Shown here: positions 14,406 to 18,462 of the stretch, piece after piece | Layout: each line of letters starts with the position of its first letter | How positions within the stretch are numbered: position 1 is the stretch's first letter | Virus record (IMG/VR): IMGVR_UViG_3300025598_000130 | Coordinates: 1 to 28,291 of that record | Length of the DNA: 28,291 nucleotides | DNA from: a virus | Reading direction: 5' to 3' (one strand) | Translations under genes and position numbers: made by a program | The notes under the pieces: model-generated | What the model was told of the DNA's origin: nothing | The model's database searches: none | What the model saw: only the letters and a program-made list of their open reading frames with translations

Positions 14406-15380
14406 ATGGCACACGAAGTTGAAACAATGGCATTCGCAAACGCAGTTCCTTGGCATGGCCTCGGTAATCGCGTCGATCCAACAGTCTCCGTGGACGACAT
14501 GCTCGTTGCCGCAGGACTGGATTGGGAAGTCAAGCTCCGTCCTTTATTCGCTCAAGCGGAAGACGGCTCAATGGTCAAGCTCCCGCTCCGCCGCGCTCTG
14601 GTGCGTTCGTCCGACAACAAAGTTATGACGGTCACAGGCGACATGTGGAAGCCATTCCAAAATAAGGATGCGCTCGAGTTTTTCCGTGAATACACGGAAG
14701 CGGGTGGCGCAAAGCTCGAAACCGCCGGGTCGCTCCGTGGGGGCAAAATGGTTTGGGCCTTGGCCTCGATCCAAGAAGGCTTCACTGTGAACAAAACGGA
14801 TCACTCCAAGGGCTACGTCCTGCTTACCTCGCCGCATGAAGTCGGCAAATCAATTACTGTCCGCACCACGGTCGTGCGGGTTGTTTGCGCCAACACCATG
14901 GCCATGGCTCTCCGTGGAGCGGAAGCGGATTATTCGCAAAACCATCTGAGCAAATTTGACGCCGCCGCCGCGAAGGAAACGATCGGCCTCGCTCGCGAGC
15001 AAATCGTTCAGGCTGGCCTCGATGCAAAGGTTCTGAGCCAACTCAAAATGTCCGAGTTCGACACAGTTCGTTTCCTCGCCAAGTTCTTTCAGCCTATGCC
15101 GGAAACGATCGTCGGTCAAAATGACCAAAAAGACTGGGTCAATGGCCTGTTGAACGATCCAGGTGCAATCGACAAGCGCTTCGATCAGGTCCTATGGTCC
15201 GTGAAAAAGGCTCCGGGTGCTGTCCCCGGCAATGCATGGGGCGTCCTCAACGGCGTGACACATTGGGCCGATCACGTGGCCGGAAATAAGTCCGAAGCCC
15301 GGCTCTACAACGCATGGTTCGGCGACAAAGCAAAGCTCAAGCTCGATGTGCGTGACGAGCTCCTTCAGCTCGCCGCCTGA
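14406..15380 (+). CDS. DUF932-family (phage/plasmid-like) protein
   Basis: The whole 324 residues fit the DUF932 / phage-plasmid primase-associated family TIGR03299: the N-terminal MAHEVETMAFANAVPWHGLG, DPTVSVDDMLVAAGLDWEV, then TGDMWKPFQNKDALEFF, GKMVWALASI and the central TTVVRVVCANTMAMAL. Members are found on phages and plasmids of many bacteria, often near replication genes; biochemical function is unknown to me. AAAAGGAAAA lies just before the ATG. The gene is followed by the structured leader of the helicase gene, so its transcript probably continues into it. Confidence 0.93.
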   Translation: MAHEVETMAFANAVPWHGLGNRVDPTVSVDDMLVAAGLDWEVKLRPLFAQAEDGSMVKLPLRRALVRSSDNKVMTVTGDMWKPFQNKDALEFFREYTEAGGAKLETAGSLRGGKMVWALASIQEGFTVNKTDHSKGYVLLTSPHEVGKSITVRTTVVRVVCANTMAMALRGAEADYSQNHLSKFDAAAAKETIGLAREQIVQAGLDAKVLSQLKMSEFDTVRFLAKFFQPMPETIVGQNDQKDWVNGLLNDPGAIDKRFDQVLWSVKKAPGAVPGNAWGVLNGVTHWADHVAGNKSEARLYNAWFGDKAKLKLDVRDELLQLAA

Positions 15381-15392
15381 GCCCAAAAACTC

Positions 15393-15529
15393 GGCGGGAG
15401 CGGTAAGTCATTGAAATCGCTATTTACCGTTTCCGCCAGAAGTCTTATTTCATCTGTTGCTGTCAGATTTTCTAGAGAAAGAAAAGAGAAGAGAAAGGGC
15501 CGAATTAAGGTTCGGAATGGAAACGGTAA
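15393..15529 (+). promoter_or_regulatory. Structured helicase leader with three mutually complementary arms
   Basis: This 149-base gene-free gap (15381-15529) holds three related arms. Arm 1 (15393-15406) pairs with arm 2 (15424-15437) over 14 bases including two G-U pairs. Arm 2 (15424-15434) also pairs exactly, over 11 bases, with arm 3 (15519-15529), which directly abuts the ATG at 15530. The two pairings exclude each other. Arm 3 would hide the ribosome-binding region. A 5-base hairpin (15500-15504 with 15511-15515) puts AAGG in its loop, and a 25-base purine tract lies at 15475-15499. The same boxes could instead be protein-binding operators. Confidence 0.5.
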
Positions 15530-17230
15530 ATGAATCTTTTGATCGAAGGCAATCGCGTAAAAACCACATCGGATTATGACGTGCGGATGATCCGGGCGCT
15601 CCCAAAGCTCGAGGGCATGAAACGGTGGGCGAGCGGCAAAGTTTTCACGTTCGAAAACACCCCTTACAACATTGAGGTTTGGAAATCCGTATTTCCTTTC
15701 GCCGAGGTGAAGGGTATGACGGGCGCTACGGCCCCTAGGGAGGCCACCAGCGGCTCTTCCGAGCCCGACGAGGCCCGACCCACCTTCGCCTTCAAAACGC
15801 CGCCCAGAGCCCACCAGACTCGCGCTTTGGAAAAAATGTTCAAAAAAGGTGAATACCCCGACTGTTTCGGCCTGTTCATGGACATCGGCACAGGCAAAAG
15901 CTGGACGGGAATTGCGATGATGGGCATCCGTTGGTGCGATGGGCTTTCGGACCATGTGCTTTTGGTCGCCAAGAACGGCGTCCACGCTCAATGGGTGAAC
16001 GAGCAAATCCCGAAGCACATGTCGGAGGTCGTGCCATGGAAGGCTTGGGTCTGGAACAAGACCAAAAAGGGCGAGCGCGAATTCGAGGAGATGATGCGGT
16101 TCAAAGGGCTGAAAATTTTCGCAATCAATATCGATGCGTTGATCACTGGCCCGGCAGAAGAAAAGATCCTGCGTTTCCTGAAAGCCGCCAAGGGCCGGGC
16201 GACCATGATCGTCGATGAATCGCAAGACATAAAAAACATCACGGCCTCTCGCACCAAAATGGCAATTCGCTATGGGGCACTGTGCAAATACAGGATGATC
16301 ATGACTGGCACGCCGCTCGCCAAAAACCTCGTGGACGCATTCAGCCAGTTCAAATTTTTGGACGAGCGCATTTTCGGCCACCGTTATGTGACCACGTTCC
16401 GTTCGCGGTATTGCCAGTTGCGCGACAACGGGTTCGGCCTCGAGATCGTGGGCCACAAAAACGTCGAGGAGTTTTATCGAAAAATTGAACCGCATATTTT
16501 CCGGATAAACGCCGACGAGGTTTTGGACCTGCCGCCCAAGGTTTATGTCCAGCAACCTTTCACGCTTTCCGATGAACAGAAAAAATTGATGAAGGATTTG
16601 CGCCAGACGTTCATGGCACAAACGGCGGGTGGCGTCACGCTTTCCGTCCCCAATGCCGCCGCGCTCGTGACGAGGATGCAGCAGATCTCCTGCGGCTTCG
16701 CTGTGGACGAGAACGGAATTGCTCGCGACCTACCCAACCCCCGGCTCCAGGAGCTCCTGAACGTGCTGGATCAGCGCTCGGGCAAGGCCATCATCTGGTG
16801 CCGTTTCAATGAAGACATAAAACGAGTTATGAAAACCCTTGGCCCATCAGCCGTGGACTATTATGGAGGAACATCCAACAATGATAGACAAAAACATATC
16901 ACGGCATTTCTCGATCCCGGAAGCAGCATCACTTATCTCGTGGCATCGCCCGAGGCGGCGGGTACTGGACTTAACCTTCAGGGTATCTGTCGGACAAACA
17001 TCTACTATTCAAACAGCTTCAATAGTCTTGCAAGATGGCAATCTGAAGGAAGAACATGGCGCGACGGAACCACTGGAAGTGTCACTTATATCGATCTCGT
17101 TGCAAAAGGAGCTCCGGACGCTCGGATCTTGAAAAACCTTCAGGACAAAAAATCAATTTCCGATCTCGCATTGGATGAATACCGCAAACTCATCATGATG
17201 GAGGAAGCCGATGAAATTTTCGAGTCGTGA
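15530..17230 (+). CDS. SNF2-family DNA helicase/translocase
   Basis: A superfamily 2 ATPase that should translocate on or remodel DNA. AHQTRAL (94-100) is the Q-like motif, FMDIGTGKSW (116-125) is Walker A with Lys123, IVDESQD (227-233) replaces DEAH, IMTGTPLAKNL (257-267) is motif III, and SEGRTWRDGT near 510 is motif VI with both arginine residues. The first 60 residues form an extra domain (GNRVKTTSDYDVRMIRALP), reminiscent of the HARP-like region of annealing helicases such as SMARCAL1; this is tentative. Length 566 suits phage SNF2 proteins. A role in fork restart, or like T4 UvsW, is inference. No clear strong Shine-Dalgarno is visible, matching the structured leader. Confidence 0.93.
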   Translation: MNLLIEGNRVKTTSDYDVRMIRALPKLEGMKRWASGKVFTFENTPYNIEVWKSVFPFAEVKGMTGATAPREATSGSSEPDEARPTFAFKTPPRAHQTRALEKMFKKGEYPDCFGLFMDIGTGKSWTGIAMMGIRWCDGLSDHVLLVAKNGVHAQWVNEQIPKHMSEVVPWKAWVWNKTKKGEREFEEMMRFKGLKIFAINIDALITGPAEEKILRFLKAAKGRATMIVDESQDIKNITASRTKMAIRYGALCKYRMIMTGTPLAKNLVDAFSQFKFLDERIFGHRYVTTFRSRYCQLRDNGFGLEIVGHKNVEEFYRKIEPHIFRINADEVLDLPPKVYVQQPFTLSDEQKKLMKDLRQTFMAQTAGGVTLSVPNAAALVTRMQQISCGFAVDENGIARDLPNPRLQELLNVLDQRSGKAIIWCRFNEDIKRVMKTLGPSAVDYYGGTSNNDRQKHITAFLDPGSSITYLVASPEAAGTGLNLQGICRTNIYYSNSFNSLARWQSEGRTWRDGTTGSVTYIDLVAKGAPDARILKNLQDKKSISDLALDEYRKLIMMEEADEIFES

Positions 17231-18244: not shown

Positions 18245-18250
18245 AAGTTT

Positions 18251-18285
18251 ACTCAGGCTGCACTGGGAGGCTCAGCAGCCTGAGT
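18251..18285. repeat. Perfect inverted repeat overlapping the end of the 69-aa gene
   Basis: ACTCAGGCTGC (18251-18261) and GCAGCCTGAGT (18275-18285) are perfect 11-base inverted copies around a 13-base loop. The left arm contains the TGA stop of the 69-aa gene on the minus strand. Together with the neighbouring terminator it forms two tandem hairpins for leftward transcripts. Confidence 0.7.
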
Positions 18286-18462
18286 ATCTTCATTCGCTGC
18301 AACTGGTGCAGCATTCGCAGCGGTTTCAATTTGCGGTTTGGCTTGGCCATGAAGCAGCTGAATGAGATCAGCAACCTCTGCATAAACTCCCGCTCCAAGA
18401 TGTTTCAAAACAGTGTTCACGTGAGCCACCGTGAGTTTCAAGTCGAGTTCAAAATTTTCCAT
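18253..18462 (-). CDS. Small hypothetical virion-region protein, 69 aa
   Basis: The first 45 residues have an amphipathic pattern (ELDLKLTVAHVNTVLKHLG, EVADLIQLLHG) seen in short phage proteins of unknown role found after tail or ejection genes. The C-terminal 25 residues are Ala/Pro/Glu-rich and probably disordered. ATG at 18462 follows GAGGGAAATT, whose bases overlap the stop of the 836-aa gene, so it is translated after it. It is the last gene of the leftward late block; its 3' end lies inside a perfect inverted repeat. Confidence 0.75.
   Translation of the reverse strand: MENFELDLKLTVAHVNTVLKHLGAGVYAEVADLIQLLHGQAKPQIETAANAAPVAANEDTQAAEPPSAA

Follow-up and report, generated by a model that had tools for sequence, protein, structure and literature searches.

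Alternative RNA folds and RNase III control the translation of the lambda cIII and N genes through their leaders. Those leaders resemble the locus described here in having exclusive folds at a phage start codon and in the involvement of RNase III, which for our locus is proposed below, whereas the exclusive folds here occur only in a single clade; we know of no sequence relation between them and the element that we report. In phage T7, RNase III cuts polycistronic mRNA at specific sites, and one substrate, R1.1, comprises 60 nt and is cut at one bond (PMC4858673). The T7 hairpins (R1.1 and others) are similar to ours in lying between genes of a polycistronic phage mRNA, with several copies per genome; however, compared with the 60 nt and single cut of R1.1, our element has ~115 nt and 30–40 pairs, is present in only two copies and is a putative RNase III substrate. 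The Correia repeat enclosed element (CREE) of Neisseria can bind RNase III and generate promoters, and there is evidence of its mobilization (PMC2649163). It shares with our element the form of a small repeat with inverted repeats adjoining genes but shows signs of mobilization, whereas ours never exceeds two copies, and these sit at constant, orthologous positions. The put RNA of HK022 is ~70 nt long with two stem-loops, and putL and putR are its two copies (PMC9378689). The likeness is that of a structured RNA with two copies in two phage transcription units, although our element forms one long hairpin rather than two stem-loops.

The locus lies in a virus record of 28,291 bases (the window, meaning the whole stretch analyzed; all coordinates refer to it). 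It contains what appears to be a discrete cis element of ~115 bases that folds into one long, nearly double-stranded hairpin, characterized by its structure, compensated conservation, an almost invariant length, a constant orientation and its occurrence in duplicate, at the helicase and packaging units.

The leader between the DUF932 and helicase genes

In the window, a DUF932 gene (PF06067, E = 1.3e-36; 14,406–15,380, + strand) is followed by an SNF2-type helicase gene (PF00176 and PF00271; 15,530–17,230, + strand), with the DUF932 stop ending at 15,380, the helicase ATG at 15,530 and an intergenic gap of 149 bases. A sequence-only reading had proposed that three arms in this gap form two exclusive structures. 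Reading the + strand directly, we found the arms exactly where it had put them: arm 1 (GGCGGGAGCGGTAA, 15,393–15,406), arm 2 (TTACCGTTTCCGCC, 15,424–15,437) and the core of arm 3 (GGAAACGGTAA, 15,519–15,529). Arms 1 and 2 form hairpin 1 with the 14 pairs claimed, two of them G-U, and a small local hairpin (CCGAATTAAGGTTCGG, CCGAA-TTAAGG-TTCGG; 15,500–15,515, + strand) and a purine tract (15,474–15,499, + strand) are likewise present. The exact match of arms 2 and 3 is also real but had been understated at 11 bases: it is a perfect 13-bp repeat of a 5′ basal arm (ATTTACCGTTTCC, 15,422–15,434, + strand) with a 3′ basal arm, the full arm 3 (GGAAACGGTAAAT, 15,519–15,531, + strand), which extends over the A and T of the helicase ATG. 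This repeat in turn forms just the foot of a longer, imperfect stem with some 30 Watson–Crick pairs. The complete long hairpin (15,421–15,532, + strand, about 112 bases) is made up of a pyrimidine-rich 5′ arm, to which arm 2 contributes, an apical loop whose 3′ side is the purine tract (purine-rich in all relatives) and a purine-rich 3′ half that includes the small hairpin; L024 and L026 have analogous small hairpins in the corresponding position.

The 13-bp repeat is the longest perfect inverted repeat in the window (loops of 8–220 bases scanned), and of 3,000 dinucleotide-shuffled leaders, 9 contained a perfect repeat of at least 11 bp; by itself, a 13-bp repeat would not stand out when the whole window is considered (0.2 expected). 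We therefore judged the hairpin to be real because it is conserved in relatives, not because of this length alone. Scans for loose-stem local folds were not informative, and we relied on perfect-repeat and duplex-score scans instead.

Conservation and covariation of the long hairpin

A search with the helicase protein yielded 12 loci in viral contigs, and alignments of the helicase, primase, TerL and DUF932 proteins added many more; all element-bearing relatives are metagenomic fragments. The element stands before the SNF2 helicase in phages with helicases 55–99% identical, and its upstream neighbor varies (DUF932, primase or a small gene). L010, L011 and L028 are without DUF932 here and retain just the hairpin of arm 2, loop and arm 3, in the order primase gene, element, small gene of ~70 codons and helicase. 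Stem sequences differ from copy to copy (CATTTTCCATTTCCA in L024, TTGATTCCATTTCC in L028, AGTTCCGTTTC in L031 and GTTTCGGTTT in L010), each of these having its own complement some 75–90 bases downstream.

Pairing of arms across clades scored high because arm sequences are partly shared, and we used column covariation instead. In an alignment of 15 copies (A4), 80% of cells in a 30-pair structure were paired, compared with 72% in shuffles. With four further copies added (A7, 19 copies), the figure was 81%, against 72 ± 1.1 in shuffles and 33–58% when the pairing partner was slid, with 21 of 30 pairs doubly changed (13.2 in shuffles) and 56 double-change cells (25.6 in shuffles). Loops and near-apex arms were aligned by sequence, and in the window's clade their placement may be off by one or two bases. 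The duplex score of the element topped every other interval of its own locus in 18 of 21 loci, on a coarse 15-base grid that lowers some scores. Complementarity runs through ~40 bp, inner helix included, and length is nearly constant in the main group (103–121 bases). Every copy is oriented alike relative to the gene that follows, its 5′ half rich in pyrimidines and its 3′ half rich in purines.

A covariance model built from the element (R1) gave matches in 21 of 30 records, with one or two sites in each. Matches outside training were the second copy of G018 (1.3e-10), G029 (2.5e-14), L209 (2.6e-17) and L210 (5.2e-14), these E-values being rough and the scores of training sequences circular. 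No Rfam covariance model matched at its gathering score, and the sub-threshold matches were of microRNA type. The element is absent from Rfam and is strongly conserved in a group of uncultured phages.

DUF932 relatives with 31–40% helicase identity carry unrelated but equally long hairpins before the helicase, with 21 perfect base pairs in L215, 16 in L217, 17 in L221 (L036 type) and 13–14 in L220 and L224; those of L215, L217 and L221 end immediately before AGGAGG or TGGAGG. Because these distant relatives have other long hairpins before the same helicase, the architecture is wider than the sequence family. In the cultured phages examined around their SNF2 helicase or DUF932 genes, namely phiVC8, Pluto, FoX7, Kyle, ZP6, DSL-LC04, Erebus and RHph_I1_18, the element was not found, and none of seven phage records tested had an inverted repeat of at least 9 bp before the helicase. 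GTDB genomes contained only distant helicases (21–27% identical).

Two further hairpins deserve mention. A near-perfect one of ~50 bp with GA-rich outer arms lies between VRR-NUC-like and nuclease-like genes of a GC-rich, 65.7-kb relative (L073:7,926–8,112) and was left out of the family, as its position and sequence differ. In another lineage, a 13-bp perfect inverted repeat (AGACTATTTACCG, loop 116; L226:1,427–1,568, also L227–L231) belongs to a long hairpin that precedes DUF932 by about 0.9 kb.

Exclusive folds and start codons

Arm 2 had been proposed to pair with either arm 1 or arm 3, one fold exposing the helicase start and the other hiding it. Both structures are more stable than shuffled sequence, with −25.2 kcal/mol for the arm 1:arm 2 hairpin (z = −5.4) and −34.6 kcal/mol for the stretch from arm 2 to arm 3 (z = −2.5); forced pairings in the window gave −49.8 (arm 1:2) versus −46.6 kcal/mol (arm 2:3). 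Two mutually exclusive structures of comparable energy, 2–7 kcal/mol apart, were recovered computationally in all six clade members tested (the window, L001, L002, L003, L005 and L006). The preferred fold is that of the window in L001, L002 and L005 but is reversed in L003 and L006, and in these models the balance between the two folds drifts among relatives.

Compensatory changes are present in the arm 2:arm 3 hairpin, but the arm 1:arm 2 helix, although 94% paired in six sequences, has one doubly changed pair (GC to AU in L003 and L006), and its covariation score, reached by 33 of 500 shuffles, is not convincingly above them. All three arms are found in the leaders of L001–L008, but arm 1 belongs to the window's clade only: it was not seen in L010, L011 or L028, nor clearly in the copies at packaging genes described below. 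Downstream of the DUF932 stop, L024, L026, L030, L031, L217 and L224 have a strong, separate hairpin; a T run comes after it in L217 and TTTT in L031. Members of the window's clade have hairpin 1 (arm 1:arm 2) at this position, its arm 2 serving in the long hairpin as well. Because it replaces the separate hairpin of relatives, the switch layout is best seen as a local merger of two neighboring hairpins, which may still be put to use. The conserved unit is the hairpin of arm 2, purine-rich loop and arm 3, not a three-arm switch.

An RNA switch in which arm 1:2 and arm 2:3 pairing toggles access to the helicase start, perhaps under the influence of ribosomes that terminate on DUF932, 12 bases before arm 1, would draw on the closeness of the two folds, on the compensated and largely paired arm 1, and on the position of arm 3, which directly adjoins the start or runs into it in the window, L001, L002, L005, L011, L064 and L072. 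We nevertheless consider such a switch unlikely: arm 1 is clade-specific, the start lies 13–26 nt past arm 3 in L003 and L006 of the window's own clade, and the independent hairpin of relatives at the arm 1:arm 2 position suggests that the overlap may be a by-product. What stands of the three-arm proposal is its arms, exclusive folds and compensation; it does not stand as the general story.

Start codons beyond the hairpin also bear on start hiding more broadly. The start lies 13–35 nt beyond the hairpin in eight relatives (L003, L006, L024, L026, L030, L031, L215 and L217) and 13–99 nt past it in more than half of the copies listed. Because of these eight relatives, the conserved function cannot be simple start hiding, and we rejected sequestration of the start codon as a general role; it would apply only where arm 3 overlaps the start, as in the window, L011, L064, L072 and, by reading, L010 and L028.

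A second copy and the proposed role of the element

In several clades, a second copy stands upstream of a VRR-NUC-like gene, TerS and TerL. Such packaging copies were found in L064, L072, G018, G029 and the window's clade (L353 and L356–L358), the latter located through a 19-base conserved block on separate contigs that we assigned to window-like genomes by their sequence. G018 has one extra small gene between the element and the VRR-NUC gene, and the packaging copies of G018 and G029 lie 37–100 nt before the start. Copies within a genome are 66–96% identical by halves over the unit, and their flanks are near the level of unrelated sequence; the window's clade is an exception, with about 15 bases upstream of the unit also common to both copies. 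This shared block (GTAAGTCATTGAAAT; window 15,403–15,417, and upstream of the element in L353 and L356) lies outside the long hairpin and, in packaging copies, is part of a weak sigma-70-like promoter match. A near-perfect palindrome of GTTTCGGTACCGAAAC type is located directly 3′ of the stop of the gene preceding the packaging copy (L356:375–420, also L353, L357 and L358).

The identity between copies of the same genome suggests recombination between them or a sequence-specific factor. A factor acting on DNA, at two inverted binding sites ~90 bp apart that loop the DNA or at a replication-initiation palindrome, would fit the neighboring replication and packaging genes, the nearly fixed length across divergent phages, the similarity of same-genome copies as sites of one protein and the promoter match that immediately precedes the packaging copy of the window's clade (a sigma-70 scan of the helicase-side element gave no match). 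It would also fit the wobble pairs, since G-U pairs do not significantly outnumber A-C mismatches in the stem as transcribed (49:35, p = 0.16). However, the box or arm sequence, which is the same in the two copies of G013 and G015, differs in G018, where each basal arm is complementary to its own partner. This self-complementarity of differing copies makes one shared binding motif less likely and weakens the sequence-only reading's alternative of operator boxes. The complementarity through ~40 bp including the inner helix, the constant orientation to the next gene, the one or two units per genome and the lack of an excess of single boxes in the window also argue against a DNA element, which we regard as improbable. 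Three free operator boxes were rejected: the window has just two exact matches to the 8-mer GGAAACGG, and the 11-mer, with two mismatches allowed, is about as frequent as expected by chance.

The borders of the unit are sharp, it has terminal inverted repeats and two similar copies per genome, and its upstream neighbor is variable, all of which recall a MITE-like or recombination-junction element, a 115-bp repeat that marks or exchanges gene modules. Multiple, variably placed copies are not seen, however: there are at most two, always before the same two gene units. A shallow look showed no target-site duplications or related transposase, and the element is kept across phages with helicases 55% identical, making this explanation very unlikely.

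Constant orientation, a position near the ribosome-binding site and compensated pairing instead favor action in the transcript. We tentatively prefer, at a little under even confidence, an RNA hairpin beside the ribosome-binding site that serves as an RNase III-type processing site or a translational gate. In most copies, the hairpin reaches the ribosome-binding site or stops shortly before it and, like a T7-type site, is an intercistronic hairpin just upstream of it, whereas its near-constant length of 103–121 bases exceeds the needs of a nuclease site. The element would act in the mRNA, transcribed toward the downstream gene. Host RNase III or a similar double-strand nuclease would cut the stem and separate the upstream transcript from the helicase or nuclease–terminase message, whose start would then be open, while an uncut hairpin would limit translation of the downstream gene. 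In the window's clade only, hairpin 1 (arm 1:arm 2) could capture the 5′ arm and free the start without cutting. That stems go on pairing through sequence change suggests that double-strandedness itself is what is used.

Another role in the transcript would be antitermination, with the element's RNA modifying RNA polymerase to read through terminators as put does. The presence of a copy in each of two transcription units, which parallels putL and putR (PMC9378689), and the terminator-like hairpin with a T run after DUF932 in L217 and L031 point this way, as does, weakly, a search for T7-like RNA polymerase that gave no match in seven records, nor in control genomes. But put consists of two adjacent stem-loops in ~70 nt and the element of a single long hairpin, which is found inside operons, after rather than before the nearest terminator-like hairpin; we view antitermination as highly improbable.

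The element links two gene units that need mutual timing, replication and packaging. On a more speculative and rather doubtful extension of the processing or gating role, one class of long-hairpin RNA before the replication-helicase and packaging units would let a single host or phage factor time both, its stems having re-evolved repeatedly with the architecture kept.

Other repeats were observed before TerS. Among more distant TerL relatives (80–83% TerL identity), many direct and inverted copies of a 12–14-bp motif around TAATCGTTCGGG precede TerS (L146:2,570–2,890 and L159:2,300–2,440, also L142, L155–L157, L165–L167 and L180) and look like operator or origin repeats, and several direct and inverted copies of CGAAAGCCCGG lie before TerS at L189:2,495–2,860. 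Elsewhere in the window, a 12-bp perfect hairpin (TACTCAGGCTGC/GCAGCCTGAGTA; 18,250–18,286, also in L002 and L005) between convergent gene arms is probably a two-way terminator. A gene at 1,627–2,058, in the kilobase where the window is richest in AT (GC 0.43), has a start (MFYVYEHWDP...FYVGKG) that, judged by eye, resembles a GIY-YIG endonuclease.
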